From positions 1,302,001 through 1,366,000 of the forward strand of contig NZ_KB892705.1 in the NCBI RefSeq assembly GCF_000373905.1: a stretch of 64,000 nt of DNA, in the 5' to 3' direction. The position numbers and the translations under genes were made by a program. Of the stretch, positions 18,609 through 24,539 are shown piece after piece. Source of the stretch: Mycobacterium sp. 155. Its GTDB lineage: Bacteria > Actinomycetota > Actinomycetes > Mycobacteriales > Mycobacteriaceae. Within the stretch, counting starts at the first letter, position 1; every line of letters begins with the position of its first letter. The notes under the pieces are model-generated. The model made no database searches, was not told the origin of the DNA, and worked only from the letters and a program-made list of their open reading frames with translations.

Positions 18609-20606
18609 TCAGTGTGAATGCGGGACGACGTCGACGCGGTCGATCGCGATGTCGGCCACGCTGCCGGTGATCGTGGTGAGCTCGCCCACCAGGATACGGG
18701 CCGCCCCGTTGTCGGTAGCCAGCGTCGACGCGAGATCGTGGATCCGGCGCAGGGCGGCCGACAGTTCGCCGGTGTCCAGGCTCCACGGCACCGCGGGACT
18801 GGGTGGTGCCCCGCGCAACGCCTCGATGTAATCGTCGACCGCGGCGATGAACTCGGAGTCCAGCGCGGACGATGGGTGGGTGGGCAGGCTGTTCTCCAGT
18901 GTGCTGCACGCGCTCGTCACGGCGTTCAACGCGGTGCGGTAGGACCGCAGCCATCGGCGCAGCGCGGGGGAGTCCAGCCGCGCCGCACCCCATGCCGCCT
19001 CGAACGCCGCGCGGGCCCGGAACGCCCGCTGCCAGGCCGCCGACAGTGCTTCGGCCGGGTGGCCCACCTCGTGCACGAACGCCGTGACCACCATCGCCGC
19101 GTAATCGATCTCGGTCATCAGCAACTCGCCGGCGCGCTGGCGCAACCGGATCAGGGCGTGGTCGGGCAGCAGCACGTGGGCCATCACCGCAAGCCCGCCT
19201 CCGATAAGCACCCCGAACAACCGGTCGAGAATTCCCGGCCAGTCCGAGAACCCGCCGACACCCACCGTGAACACCAGGACGGCTCCGATGGCGACGACCA
19301 CCGCGAGATAGCCGTACCTGATCACTCTGTAGGCGATTCCGACGACCACCGTGGCGCAGATCGCCGAGGCCAGCGCATCGGGCTGCCAGAACACCGTCAG
19401 CACCGACGCAGCCAGGATCCCCGCGACGAGCCCGGTCATCCGCCCAGCGCAGCGCGTGTAGGTATGCGCGGTCTCCGGCCGCAGCACGACCACCACCGCC
19501 AAAGCCATCCAGCAGCCGTGCCCCAGCGTGCCGTACCGGGTGGCCGCTACAGCGATCGCGGTGGTCACCGACAACCTGATGGCGTGTCGCAGGATCGGGG
19601 ACGTCCAGGTCAGGTGTGACCGGACGACCGCAGGGGCCGAGGCCAGCGACCCGATCAAGTCCGGCCGGTGCAGCTGCCCGAACCGCAGCACCGCCGCTTC
19701 TCGCAATTGTTCGGAGAAACGATGTGCGCGTGTGGCTTCCGGCCCGGACACGGCAGCCGCGGTGGCGTCGACACGGACCAGCGCATGCTCGGCGTCGCGG
19801 CGTGCGGTGTGGCCGTGGGCTGCGATGGCATCGAGCAGCACCGCTGCCGCGGCCAGCAGCTGCGGCACGCCGTCATCGCGGTCACCGCCCGCCGTCGAAC
19901 GGAACGAGGCCAGACTTGCGGCAAGCCGTTCGGGCAGCCGGTAGCCGCCGTGGTAAGCCCGGGGGCGCTGGCTCACCTGAGAATTGGCGAACACTTCGCG
20001 CAGCCAGGTCATCGGCGCGTCCTCGACATCGGCAGCGCAGTCCGCGGCCACGCTGCGGGCGTCGGCGGCCAGCGACCGGTAGGCGCGGGTCAATCCCTCC
20101 CGTTGGGCCCGCCACCGACGCGGTGGCCGTACCGCGATGAGCCCTGCCTGCAGGAGACCGGTGGCCAGGACCAGGATGGGAGTGAGCAGGATGTCTGCCC
20201 ACGTCGGTGCACTCGCCGGCGCGATCACCAGCAGTGCACTGGCGGCGGAAGCGACCAGGCCGGCATTGGCACCCAGCGACCACTGCATCCCGGCGGCAAA
20301 ACACCACAGTCCGACCACGACGATGAACAGCGCACTGTGCGCGCCACTCAACACCGCGAGCAGTACCACGGCGGCCAACTCGACCGATCCGGTCACCACG
20401 AGGGGCACCCGCCCGCCAGGGCTGCGCTGCAGCGCGATTGCGCCGGCAATCACCCCGGCGCCGAGCGTCCACATGGCTGCGGTGGTCGAGATAGCGTAGA
20501 GCGCCAGCGTGGTGAGCACGAGAGTGCCGATCAGGCTGCGCGCCACCGCGCCCGCGTCGGGAGTGCTCAGCCGCAGCGCGTCGGCTGGTTGTCCACCGGT
20601 CTGCAC
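18609..20606 (-). CDS. FUSC-family membrane protein (aromatic acid exporter-like)
   Basis: A 665-aa inner-membrane protein with two blocks of about five to six membrane spans each (residues 20-155 and 330-470) separated by a cytosolic helical region, plus a C-terminal helical domain (500-640). The second block holds YGTLGHGCWMALAVVVVLRP and RMTGLVAGILAASVL, typical of FUSC/YccS/AaeB proteins thought to export aromatic acids or similar compounds. The GTG at 20606 starts just before the first membrane span; the frame is open upstream but that part overlaps bfd on the same strand and looks random. Confidence 0.85.
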   Translation of the reverse strand: MQTGGQPADALRLSTPDAGAVARSLIGTLVLTTLALYAISTTAAMWTLGAGVIAGAIALQRSPGGRVPLVVTGSVELAAVVLLAVLSGAHSALFIVVVGLWCFAAGMQWSLGANAGLVASAASALLVIAPASAPTWADILLTPILVLATGLLQAGLIAVRPPRRWRAQREGLTRAYRSLAADARSVAADCAADVEDAPMTWLREVFANSQVSQRPRAYHGGYRLPERLAASLASFRSTAGGDRDDGVPQLLAAAAVLLDAIAAHGHTARRDAEHALVRVDATAAAVSGPEATRAHRFSEQLREAAVLRFGQLHRPDLIGSLASAPAVVRSHLTWTSPILRHAIRLSVTTAIAVAATRYGTLGHGCWMALAVVVVLRPETAHTYTRCAGRMTGLVAGILAASVLTVFWQPDALASAICATVVVGIAYRVIRYGYLAVVVAIGAVLVFTVGVGGFSDWPGILDRLFGVLIGGGLAVMAHVLLPDHALIRLRQRAGELLMTEIDYAAMVVTAFVHEVGHPAEALSAAWQRAFRARAAFEAAWGAARLDSPALRRWLRSYRTALNAVTSACSTLENSLPTHPSSALDSEFIAAVDDYIEALRGAPPSPAVPWSLDTGELSAALRRIHDLASTLATDNGAARILVGELTTITGSVADIAIDRVDVVPHSH

Positions 20607-20692
20607 CCGCCCATTCTCGCGCCTGTGCGCCCGGGTAGGTGGCCAACCGCGGTCAAGTGGCGCGAATCGCCTGGGGTGGCGCTGGCCGCAGT

Positions 20693-20968
20693 TCAGGAAG
20701 TGCTTCCGGTCCCGTTGTCCGACGAGGATGCCATGATCTCGCCGCAGAGCCGGGGTGAGGTCTTGCTGCGTGCCGGGCAGCCGTTGAACGGAGTCGGGCA
20801 CCCGTTGGCCTCGTGTGCGGCGATGATCGCGCGGATGGTGCGCCGGCACCGGCCGCAGTCGATGCCTGCGCCGCAGGCATCCGCGATCTGCTTGGACGTG
20901 GTGGCTCCGGCCGCCACAACTTCATTGACCACGTGGCTGGTGACTCCGGTACACATACAGACGAACAT
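20693..20968 (-). CDS. bfd: Bacterioferritin-associated ferredoxin (Bfd-like [2Fe-2S] protein)
   Basis: A 91-aa protein opening MFVCMCTGVTSHVV, with the four cluster cysteines in the order CxC ... CGAGIDCGRC, the BFD-type [2Fe-2S] fold. In Pseudomonas, Bfd passes electrons to bacterioferritin heme so that stored iron is released. Here it lies in the same short region as bfrA. The usual Bfd domain ends near residue 55; a further 36 residues with three more cysteines (NGCPTPFNGCPARS, RLCGE) are unusual. It starts 12 bp after the 221-aa gene and probably shares its mRNA. Confidence 0.9.
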   Translation of the reverse strand: MFVCMCTGVTSHVVNEVVAAGATTSKQIADACGAGIDCGRCRRTIRAIIAAHEANGCPTPFNGCPARSKTSPRLCGEIMASSSDNGTGSTS

Positions 20969-20980
20969 CAGCTCACCGGC

Positions 20981-21646
20981 TCATTCCTGGCCGTCAACGG
21001 TCATGATGTGGGCCAATTTGCCGACGAACAGGCTCGGATAGGCGCCGAAGCCGGCTCGCGTCATCCATTCGGCGGCCGCATCGGGATGGTCGATCCACTG
21101 GCGGGCGCTGATCTCGTCTTCGATCTCCTGCAGGATCATGACTTCTTGCCCGTCGTCGAGCGCCTGGTACACCCACACCTTGCGCACGCCGCTGTTCTCG
21201 AACCGGCCCAGCCCGTCGTGCACCTTGCGCATCAGTGTTGGCACGTCGTCGACCACCGAGACCACCCCGACCACCACCCCGGCCGCGTATTCGTCCGCGG
21301 TTGGCCCGGCCAGGTCGATTTTCTCCACCACCTCCCCGCCGAATATCGGCGGGATGTCTTCGACCCCGGATATGTCGAACCATTCGAAGATGGCCGGTGA
21401 ACGTAATATATCGCGAATTGACCGGGCATTACGGATACCAATGGTCACCAGAACCCGCCCGGGCTCCCAAATCGACGTGTAGAGCACCACGTGATGTGCC
21501 CCGATGGTCAGTAATCTCGAACGATGTTTCTTCATCCATTTCCACATCTGTTCGACATCGTCGAGCCGGAAATCGCAGCTCAAAATGAGCGAGTGCAAAT
21601 CGAACTCACGCATTTCTTCTCGCGATTCCTGTCCGTCGGCCGGCAT
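20981..21646 (-). CDS. Conserved hypothetical protein in the bfd/bfr unit
   Basis: A 221-aa soluble protein with no signal peptide or membrane span and no family I recognise. Two similar-sized halves are seen: residues 12-100 (LHSLILSCDFRL, MWKWMKKHRSRLL, VVLYTSIWEPGRVLVTIGI) and 118-215 (VVVGVVSVVDDVP, RKVWVYQALDDGQEVMILQEI), each with strand-helix-strand character suggesting tandem ferredoxin-like barrels. ATG 21646 directly follows an IdeR-like box; ATG 21613 is an alternative start. It is upstream of bfd, 12 bp apart, and divergent from bfrA, so a role in iron storage or release is inferred from context only. Confidence 0.75.
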   Translation of the reverse strand: MPADGQESREEMREFDLHSLILSCDFRLDDVEQMWKWMKKHRSRLLTIGAHHVVLYTSIWEPGRVLVTIGIRNARSIRDILRSPAIFEWFDISGVEDIPPIFGGEVVEKIDLAGPTADEYAAGVVVGVVSVVDDVPTLMRKVHDGLGRFENSGVRKVWVYQALDDGQEVMILQEIEDEISARQWIDHPDAAAEWMTRAGFGAYPSLFVGKLAHIMTVDGQE

Positions 21647-21647
21647 G

Positions 21648-21666
21648 TTAGCCGAGTCTAACCTTA
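21648..21666. promoter_or_regulatory. IdeR-like iron box between bfrA and the bfd unit
   Basis: TTAGCCGAGTCTAACCTTA matches 14 of 19 positions of the mycobacterial iron box TTAGGTTAGGCTAACCTAA. A weaker half, TTAGGACAGGC (21668-21678), follows in tandem. The box touches the start of the minus-strand gene and lies about 185 bp before bfrA. It could repress the bfd side and activate bfrA when iron is plentiful; this is inference. Confidence 0.6.
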
Positions 21667-21851
21667 CTTAGGACAGGCAGTCCAGTGTTCGAGGTCCGAT
21701 GGGTCGACGGGTTCGACAGGGGCGGGTATTCCGCCCGAAAAATATGCAACTGTACTCAAAATCGGTGCGTCCATCGGGAGTTTCTGCAGTAGATTGGCAA
21801 TGCACGGCAAACAGCAACGCTTGAACAGCCCTCAAGTGCTTAGGAGTGACG

Positions 21852-22331
21852 ATGCAAGGGGATCCGGACGTTCTGAAATTGCTGAATGAGCAATTGACGA
21901 GCGAGCTCACAGCCATTAATCAGTATTTTTTACATTCCAAGATGCAGGACAGCTGGGGATTTACAGAACTGGCCAGTCATACACGCTCGGAATCATTCGA
22001 AGAAATGCAGCACGCAGAGGTGATCACTGATCGTATTCTGCTGTTGAATGGACTGCCGAACTATCAGCGGTTGTCCTCGCTGCGCATCGGGCAGACGTTG
22101 CGGGAGCAATTCGAGGCGGATCTGGCCATCGAATACGAGGTGGTCGAGCGGCTCAAGCCCGGCATCATCATGTGCCGTGAGAAGCAGGACGCCGTGACGG
22201 CCAACCTGTTCGAGAAGATTCTGGGTGACGAGGAAGGTCACATCGACTACCTGGAAACGCAGCTGGAACTCATGGACAAGCTGGGTGATGCGCTCTACGC
22301 CGCGCAGTGCGTCTCCCGGCCGCCGCAGTAA
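21852..22331 (+). CDS. bfrA: Bacterioferritin BfrA
   Basis: Heme-containing ferritin that stores iron in a 24-subunit cage. The 159 aa match the family's usual length. Ferroxidase ligands are E18, E51, H54 and the later pair in GDEEGHIDYLE; M52 is the heme ligand. The ATG at 21852 has AGGAG six bases upstream; an in-frame GTG six bases earlier is less likely. It is divergent from the 221-aa/bfd unit, with an IdeR-like box between. The gene after it is an MFS pump, the same order as Rv1876-Rv1877 in M. tuberculosis. Confidence 0.97.
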   Translation: MQGDPDVLKLLNEQLTSELTAINQYFLHSKMQDSWGFTELASHTRSESFEEMQHAEVITDRILLLNGLPNYQRLSSLRIGQTLREQFEADLAIEYEVVERLKPGIIMCREKQDAVTANLFEKILGDEEGHIDYLETQLELMDKLGDALYAAQCVSRPPQ

Positions 22332-22353
22332 CCTTCAGCCGCCACGCTTGTCG

Positions 22354-22394
22354 CCGCCTCGGATGTCCGGTTCAGTACCGGAGGTCCGAGGCGG
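22354..22394 (+). terminator. Intrinsic terminator after bfrA
   Basis: A 10-bp stem (22354-22363 with 22385-22394) encloses a second 6-bp hairpin and is followed by TTTA. It lies 23 bp after the bfrA stop codon. Confidence 0.8.
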
Positions 22395-22487
22395 TTTACG
22401 TCTGTGTCGCGCCTCACGGTAACTTTCATAGGCAACCTAACGATATGACGTCTGGACCGACTGTCCTGCCGTCGGCGAAAGGATGTC

Positions 22488-24539
22488 ATGACAAGCGCAC
22501 CGACCACCGCGGAACCGCAGCCAAGCAGCGGTGTTCTGCTGAGCCTGCGCCGCCGCAACCTCGTCTTCATCGCGGTGCTGCTCGGCATGTTGCTCGCCGC
22601 CTTGGATCAGACCATCGTGGCGACCGCGCTGCCAACCGTCGTCGCCGATCTCGGCGGCGCGGGCCATCAGTCCTGGGTGGTGACCAGCTATTTGTTGGCC
22701 TCCACGATCGTCACCGCCGTGGTGGGCAAGGTCGGCGACATCTTCGGCCGCAAGGCGGTATTCCAGGCCGCGGTGGTGTTCTTCCTGGTCGGTTCGGTGC
22801 TGTGCGGTGCGTCGGGCTCGATGGCCATGCTGGTGGCGTCCCGTGCACTACAGGGCATCGGCGGCGGCGCGATCATGGTCACCGCCACCGCGCTTATCGG
22901 CGAGGTCATCCCGCTACGTGACCGAGGCCGCTATCAGGGCATGCTCGGCGCTGTCTTCGGAGTCACCACGGTGATCGGCCCGCTGCTCGGCGGGTTCTTC
23001 ACCGATCACCTGAGTTGGCGCTGGGCGTTCTGGGTCAACGTCCCGGTCGGCATCGTGGTATTCCTCGTCGCCGCGGGCACCATCCCGGCGCTGACCCGCG
23101 CCGGCCGTCCGGTAATCGACTACCTCGGAATCATCCTCGTCGGGCTGGGCGCGTCCGGCCTCACGCTGGCCACCAGCTGGGGCGGCGGCGAATACCCTTG
23201 GGCATCGCCGGTCATCATCGGCTTGTTCATCGGGTCGGCGATCGCTCTGGTCGCTTTTGTTCGCGTGGAAACCCGTGCGGCCGAACCGATCCTGCCCATG
23301 CGCCTGTTCGCCAGCCCGGTGTTCTCGGTGTGTTGTGTGCTGTCGTTCATCGTCGGTTTCGCGATGCTCGGCGCGTTGACCTTCATGCCCACGTTCATGC
23401 AGTTCGTCAACGGTGTCTCAGCCACCGAATCGGGGCTGCGCACGCTGCCCATGGTGGCGGGGCTGCTCATCACCTCGACCGGCAGCGGCGCCATCGTCAG
23501 CCGCACGGGCCGCTACAAGATCTTCCCGGTCGCCGGCACCGCGGTGATGACGATCGCGTTCGTGTTGCTGTCCCGGATGGACGCGGCCACGCCCACGCCG
23601 CTGCAGTCGCTGTACCTGTTCATCCTCGGTATCGGCATCGGCATGTGCATGCAGGTGCTCATCCTGACCGTGCAGAACACCGCGAAGTTCGCCGATCTCG
23701 GCGTGGCGACATCTGGCGTGACGTTCTTCCGGACCATCGGCAGCTCCTTCGGTGCGGCCATCTTCGGCTCGCTTTTCACCAACTTCCTGTCGGGTCGCCT
23801 TCCGGGCGCATTGGCGGCTAGTGGTGCGCCGGCAGCGGCCGGGGCCTCGCCCAAGGTGCTGCATGAGCTGCCTGCCCAGGTGGCCGCGCCCATCGTGGAC
23901 GCGTATGCCGGTGCCCTGGGCAACGTGTTCCTGTGCGCGGCACCGGTCGCACTGGTCGGGTTTGTCGTGGCGTTGTTCCTCAAGGAGGTGCCGCTGCAGG
24001 AGATGGATGCGAGCGTGGCGGTCGATCTCGGTGAGGGGTTCGGCATGCCCAGCGCCGAGTCGGCCGAGAAGGTGCTGGAGACCGCGATCAGCAGGCTGAT
24101 GCGTAACTCCCGCGACATCCGGTTACGTACCGTCGCCGGGTCGCCGGGCTGTGAACTCGACGTCGCCAGATTGTGGGCCCTGCTGCAGATCTACCGGCAG
24201 AGCCAGGTGTTCGGCTCGGCCCGGCTCACCGAGATCGCCGAGCGATTACGCGTTCCCCACGAGGTCCTCGAACCCACCTTCGACACGCTGGTCGCCGACG
24301 GGTACGTGCTCCGTGCCGGAGATCAGCTTTGGTTGACGCAGCGCGGGCTGAGCCAGGTTGATGCGGTATCGGCGGCTCTGGTGGGACGGATCGTCGAAAA
24401 GCTGGCCACGTCACCGTCATTCGAGGGAAGACCGGACCGTGATCAGGTCGAGGCCGCGCTCGAGCGCATCGCACACCGGGTGCTGGCGCAGCGGGACTGG
24501 GGTGACGATAATGTGGAGTCGCTTGCGGCCAAGCACTAG
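22488..24539 (+). CDS. MFS drug-efflux transporter (DHA2, EmrB/QacA type) with C-terminal winged-helix-like domain
   Basis: Proton-driven exporter of 683 aa, similar to Rv1877. Residues 20-500 carry 14 membrane spans with LDQTIVATALPTVV in the first, the GDIFGRKAV loop motif and motif C (GAVFGVTTVIGPLLGG). Residues 545-683 are soluble and look like a winged helix: LWALLQIYRQSQ, LTEIAERLRVPHEVLEPTFD, LVADGYVLRAGDQLWLTQRG. Its start follows GTCGGCGAAAGGATGTC (AAAGGA). A terminator separates it from bfrA. Substrates cannot be read from the sequence. Confidence 0.92.
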   Translation: MTSAPTTAEPQPSSGVLLSLRRRNLVFIAVLLGMLLAALDQTIVATALPTVVADLGGAGHQSWVVTSYLLASTIVTAVVGKVGDIFGRKAVFQAAVVFFLVGSVLCGASGSMAMLVASRALQGIGGGAIMVTATALIGEVIPLRDRGRYQGMLGAVFGVTTVIGPLLGGFFTDHLSWRWAFWVNVPVGIVVFLVAAGTIPALTRAGRPVIDYLGIILVGLGASGLTLATSWGGGEYPWASPVIIGLFIGSAIALVAFVRVETRAAEPILPMRLFASPVFSVCCVLSFIVGFAMLGALTFMPTFMQFVNGVSATESGLRTLPMVAGLLITSTGSGAIVSRTGRYKIFPVAGTAVMTIAFVLLSRMDAATPTPLQSLYLFILGIGIGMCMQVLILTVQNTAKFADLGVATSGVTFFRTIGSSFGAAIFGSLFTNFLSGRLPGALAASGAPAAAGASPKVLHELPAQVAAPIVDAYAGALGNVFLCAAPVALVGFVVALFLKEVPLQEMDASVAVDLGEGFGMPSAESAEKVLETAISRLMRNSRDIRLRTVAGSPGCELDVARLWALLQIYRQSQVFGSARLTEIAERLRVPHEVLEPTFDTLVADGYVLRAGDQLWLTQRGLSQVDAVSAALVGRIVEKLATSPSFEGRPDRDQVEAALERIAHRVLAQRDWGDDNVESLAAKH

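Follow-up and report, generated by a model that had tools for sequence, protein, structure and literature searches.

We analyzed a 64,000-nucleotide stretch of the genome of Mycobacterium sp. 155 (contig NZ_KB892705.1, positions 1,302,001 to 1,366,000; hereafter the window), in which the bacterioferritin gene bfrA faces a two-gene operon encoding a protein that we call X and a Bfd-type [2Fe-2S] ferredoxin (bfd). In our judgement there is an even chance that this locus works as a divergent iron-store switch, in which X-bfd is set against bfrA and X serves as an ABM-type barrel redox partner of Bfd. What carries this reading is the gene order, a conserved iron box, the predicted fold of X, and the linkage of X with bfd in several settings. 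An iron-controlled switch between the bfrA and bfd sides is of a kind already known; X and its recurring pairing with bfd are what is new here, and both appear to be undescribed. The features of the locus are as follows, in window coordinates.

20693 to 20968, minus strand: bfd, Bfd-type [2Fe-2S] ferredoxin of 91 amino acids (aa), PF04324
20981 to 21613, minus strand: X, 210 aa, two ferredoxin-like repeats, predicted single-chain ABM-type barrel
21648 to 21666: putative IdeR/DmdR-type iron box, 14/19 matches, holding TAGACT (TANNNT)
21668 to 21684: second conserved block in a 78-row alignment, TGGACTGcCTnnnCTAA on the minus strand, probably a weaker second box
21785 to 21796, plus strand: conserved TGcAGTAGaTTg, possible bfrA -10 region (TAGATT), with a presumed promoter role
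21852 to 22331, plus strand: bfrA, haem bacterioferritin of 159 aa, TIGR00754

The first-pass annotation, made from the sequence of the window alone, had described bfrA on the plus strand as divergent from X and bfd on the minus strand, and the gene order bears this out; only 12 base pairs (bp) separate the stop codon of X from the start of bfd. Two of its gene starts were revised. X had been begun at 21646 (221 aa), but the ATG at 21613 (210 aa) is likelier because 116 of the best 120 listed relatives are 205-214 aa long, with 221 aa in the remaining 4, because a stop codon, or no start codon, lies just upstream of the corresponding start in some relatives, and because GAGAAG precedes this ATG. 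For bfrA, the GTG at 21846 was replaced by the ATG at 21852, which has AGGAG in front. The bfrA product, scored on a 161-aa frame, exceeded the Bfr cut-off (TIGR00754, 239.5 against 125.55 bits) and was also above the Pfam cut-off. It contains E18, E51, M52, H54, E94, E127, and H130, which we take to be the ferroxidase ligands and the haem-binding Met52 in the numbering assumed here. The ferredoxin passed the Pfam cut-off (PF04324, 42.2 against 26 bits) and fell below the PRK10509 equivalog cut-off (NF007803, 28.7 against 75 bits); judged by sequence, it is a Bfd-like protein and not a PRK10509 equivalog.

To describe the distribution of X, we searched genomes within the genus and the family. 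Among the matches listed, X was present in 134 of 148 Mycobacterium genomes; in a family-wide sample of 151 genomes from 31 genera, 21 genomes and 3 genera had it. The two other genera are Williamsia and Aldersonia (names taken from 3 of the 11 genomes), and all 11 genomes again show the order bfrA, then X-bfd. The X of the window, whose genome measures 4.6 megabases (Mb), has its nearest counterpart in Mycobacterium sp. 141 (98%). A phylogenetic tree of 43 X proteins was separated into three supported groups, namely the bfrA-linked X of Mycobacterium (clade A, support 94/89), X located away from bfrA (clade B, 100/97), and X of the two other genera (99/97).

The main sample consisted of the best 80 of 240 X relatives from a scan of named genomes, every one of which was linked to bfrA; it is uninformative for clade B. 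In these loci, bfd adjoined X in 79 of 80 cases, and the same was seen in all eight clade-A loci that the first sample contained, among them the window. The sole exception of the 80, locus L039, has a partial bfd match about 3 kb off, perhaps owing to an assembly break. We also examined 40 X genes away from bfrA, of which 20 fell into clade B in the tree (11.5 to 16.7 kb searched around each) and 20 were chosen by identity (40-51% to the X of the window; about 1.2 kb searched on each side, less in L251, with no bfrA found). A bfd gene lay directly downstream of X in 31 of these 40 (12/16, 3/4, and 16/20). Such X genes in the genus usually have their own bfd, with neither bfrA nor an iron box. 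Of the 15 genomes in the first sample that have clade-B X only, 14 retain a separate bfd with bfrA. These adjacency counts indicate that the most constant partner of X is the Bfd-type ferredoxin and not bfrA, and its link with bfd is closer than that with bfrA or with iron. The first-pass annotation had treated the third protein as a member of the bfrA unit and had suggested checking whether it always travels with both genes; it belongs to that unit in clade A as well as in Williamsia and Aldersonia, but it stands elsewhere in much of the genus.

In the annotated clade-B loci, the neighbors of X include genes for an AMP-binding ligase, an amidohydrolase, a CoA-transferase, a thiolase, or an acyl-CoA dehydrogenase; the genes were called by a crude open-reading-frame script, and only some were annotated. 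Some clade-B loci also encode, beside the AMP-binding ligase and X, a conserved 100-aa protein with no Pfam match (L105:7664-7966 and L119:8730-9032). Counts from 25 genomes (clade A only in 7, B only in 15, both in 1, none in 2) had given rise to the idea that A and B copies strictly exclude each other, and this was rejected, as 33 of the 148 genomes have two or more matches among those listed, a few of which may be pieces of one copy. Two 3.3-Mb Mycobacterium genomes (G232 and G272) contained only pieces of X with internal stops, and 5 of the 8 genomes in that check had no match.

We next turn to the protein itself, which had been described as belonging to no recognised family. The 221-aa frame indeed found no match in Pfam or NCBIfam with E values up to 1, and the 210-aa form had no Pfam match, ABM (PF03992) included, but some relatives show an ABM signal: this was the case for 8 of 45 chosen and aligned members at E values up to 1, with a best value of 1.3e-5. 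The structure prediction proposed in the first-pass annotation gave two models, with predicted local distance difference test values of 82.2 and 85.5 and predicted template modelling scores of 0.81 and 0.84. The sequence contains an internal repeat (E = 1.6e-9), and in the predicted models the secondary structure and whole-length fold matches place two ferredoxin-like repeats in one barrel. X is accordingly predicted to be a tandem-duplicated, single-chain ABM-type barrel. The best fold matches were oxygenase-like, namely 5f9p (anthrone-oxidase-like) and PenE. The resemblance to tandem ABM proteins and dimeric alpha-beta barrels (5f9p, PenE, sulfur oxygenase reductase, HmoB, and chlorite dismutase/HemQ) is one of fold, with X being only 7-18% identical to them. 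Searched by sequence against solved chains, X reached a best E value of 0.23, for the single protein and the profile alike, and to unrelated molecules.

The database name of X, "fatty-acid--CoA ligase" (NCBI), was rejected, as the 45 members together match 20 families and AMP-binding is not one of them; the wrong name probably arose because true ligases neighbor the clade-B copies. In the literature searched, mostly papers outside subscription journals, we found no tandem-ABM family corresponding to X and paired with bfd, and the passages available from PMC5218490, PMC7762939, PMC8371482, PMC2170428, and PMC10745912 do not mention it.

To characterize the control region, we scored the window with a 19-bp operator consensus that we take to be that of IdeR. 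The 14/19 box annotated at 21648-21666 was confirmed and is the sole position in the window that reaches at least 14, compared with a chance expectation of 0.07 on average and 2 at most in 100 simulated sequences. The consensus 19-mer itself is given as a DmdR1 site in PMC7174319. The box had been thought to touch the start of X; given the start at 21613, it ends 34 bp upstream, and 185 bp separate it from the start of bfrA. Across 81 bfrA-X gap regions (the window and the 80 loci), the best box scored 13 in 5, 14 in 72, and 15 in 4, and all 81 contained both the TAGACT core and TAAGGTTAGACTnnnCTAA or a one-base variant of it. Three of these regions (L050, L091, and L095) were wrongly cut in length and were excluded from the 78-row alignment and from a box count of 72/80; three further matches of at least 14 in 1,133,733 bases may be these same loci.

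The alignment revealed a conserved 37-bp block, TGGACTGcCTnnnCTAAnTAAGGTTAGACTnnnCTAA (21684 down to 21648), and most of the remaining gap was unconserved, the patch at 21785-21796 being the other conserved part. The weaker half-box reported next to the main box is part of the second conserved block directly upstream, which scores 12-13 as a box in some relatives. TAGACT inside the main box is a possible -10 element of the X-bfd operon, fitting the mycobacterial TANNNT; a scan of 20500-22500 with the sigma-70 consensus, which is of little use in this genus, gave no promoter-like site. Lying over this possible -10 and 34 bp before X, the box is positioned as expected for a repressor of X-bfd. 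In addition, 15 gaps within the genus separate bfrA from a facing bfd with no X between, and 14 of these had a box of at least 14, several of them two; the box thus goes with the bfrA/bfd unit. In four loci (L064, L081, L092, and L097), an additional 14/19 iron-box-like site overlaps the start codon of X. The window genome encodes two strong DtxR-type regulators (81.6 and 79.5 bits), either of which may be IdeR.

Under the switch reading, an IdeR-type repressor would cover the X-bfd promoter by binding the double box when iron is present and shut this operon; bfrA would meanwhile be on, and it may be activated from the same site, some 185 bp before the bfrA start. At low iron the repressor would leave, and X and Bfd would be made together, as the box and the published relatives suggest. 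Bfd would then pass electrons to the haem of BfrA, leading to iron release, and X would work with Bfd, either accepting its electrons as an enzyme or serving to hold or feed the ferredoxin. The linkage and the modelled fold make it probable that X acts as a redox partner of Bfd. Of these steps, we infer the occupation of the promoter, an increase of bfrA in response to iron in the species of the window, and all of the chemistry of X.

The published background concerns the two known sides of this arrangement. According to the passages available from PMC5218490, BfrA and BfrB of M. tuberculosis are under IdeR regulation, and bfd is divergent to bfrA, IdeR-regulated, and elevated in low iron; Gold et al. 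2001, with IdeR as a "dual functional regulator" in its title, is cited there, and the part of bfd in iron release is called "still a matter of speculation". The M. tuberculosis unit as published shares with the window its divergence, its IdeR regulation, and the low-iron rise of bfd, whereas in the window X sits between bfd and the shared control region. The opposite iron control proposed in the first-pass annotation agrees with where the box lies, with its conservation, and with the M. tuberculosis account; it is plausible, but not new. In Pseudomonas, Bfd promotes iron release from BfrB, and PMC7762939 describes the two genes as differentially expressed neighbors; this pair likewise combines a haem bacterioferritin with a [2Fe-2S] Bfd. 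The regulator of that pair, however, is a different one. To our knowledge, no X gene stands at the Pseudomonas BfrB-Bfd genes.

Several observations weigh against the switch with X as its third component. In the passage available from PMC2170428, the bacterioferritins of M. smegmatis showed no induction under any condition tested, which gives no support for activation of bfrA by iron; together with the fact that the available published passages do not state a rise of bfrA with iron, this lowered our confidence. None of the 11 bfrA-X gaps in the two other genera had a box of 12 or more, and none of the 20 clade-B X genes had one of at least 14 within about 300 bp upstream (best 13), suggesting that X itself is not tied to IdeR. 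In 15 genomes examined, bfrA faces bfd with no X between them, and the basic switch can therefore do without X. Within this X-less arrangement, the gap of L221 reaches only 12; in another genome (L223), no bfd was found beside bfrA. Furthermore, 9 of the 40 X genes away from bfrA lack an adjoining bfd, and across the 45 relatives X has no invariant His or Cys (H41 is kept in 90% or more), leaving no evident metal or haem site.

These observations bear on how X should be understood. The pair could be a general redox unit of lipid or steroid catabolism, consisting of a ferredoxin and an ABM-type oxygenase, that stands beside bfrA in some lineages and whose ferredoxin may or may not serve BfrA. 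The presence of a dedicated bfd at most X genes away from bfrA, the acyl-CoA ligase and other catabolic genes near the annotated copies, and the oxygenase-like fold matches all speak for it. However, the link to bfrA recurs in Mycobacterium clade A and two other genera, so that it is no accident of a single clade, and in clade A the X-bfd operon bears an iron box; on balance, we consider this explanation rather unlikely. Alternatively, X may have no connection with the chemistry of Bfd, and their adjacency may reflect plain operon inheritance. The nine X genes without bfd and the X-less bfd genes beside bfrA would be expected in that case, but X and bfd have stayed together across three genera and in two distinct settings, which makes plain inheritance quite improbable.

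A role of X in handling haem for BfrA, by loading, removing, or breaking it down in the manner of IsdG/HmoB or chlorite-dismutase-type barrels, is suggested by the fold and appears very improbable. These haem enzymes have a conserved His at the haem, whereas X has no such invariant residue, and we lowered this explanation accordingly; a common fold is no proof of function, and many copies of X stand away from bfrA. Returning to the partnership of X with Bfd, we tentatively consider a broader form, although we think it somewhat unlikely as a whole: X and a Bfd-type ferredoxin would constitute an undescribed two-gene redox cassette that is plugged into either bacterioferritin iron release or acyl-CoA/steroid breakdown, with X a real third partner of release from BfrA. 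Iron release from mycobacterial bacterioferritin has been little tested, and a conserved third protein that is paired with bfd and has a clear fold prediction provides a direct handle on it. The X-bfd pairs in lipid loci point to a broader use of Bfd-type ferredoxins, and the analysis also corrects the misleading ligase name.

The ferredoxin of the window was described as having an unusual 36-residue tail with three extra Cys (20693-20801). The tail is present, but it is a local peculiarity and no family feature. Besides Cys 4, 6, 38, and 41, presumably the [2Fe-2S] positions of Bfd-like proteins, the protein has Cys 32 and the tail residues Cys 57, 64, and 75. Beyond residue 55, 30 of 79 clade-A Bfd proteins lack Cys altogether, 25 have one, 18 two, and 6 three; the window-type tail was found in four of these six (L025-L028) and nowhere else among the 79. 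Bfd proteins with a different Cys-rich tail occur beside bfrA in L219 and L220. In a tree of Bfd built on 56 columns, support was limited to a few forks; it grouped 14 of 15 clade-B proteins and was otherwise unresolved.

Finally, bfrA is followed, here and in several relatives, by a gene for a DHA2-type efflux transporter of 683 aa with a long C-terminal extension (22488-24539), an order that resembles Rv1876-Rv1877.
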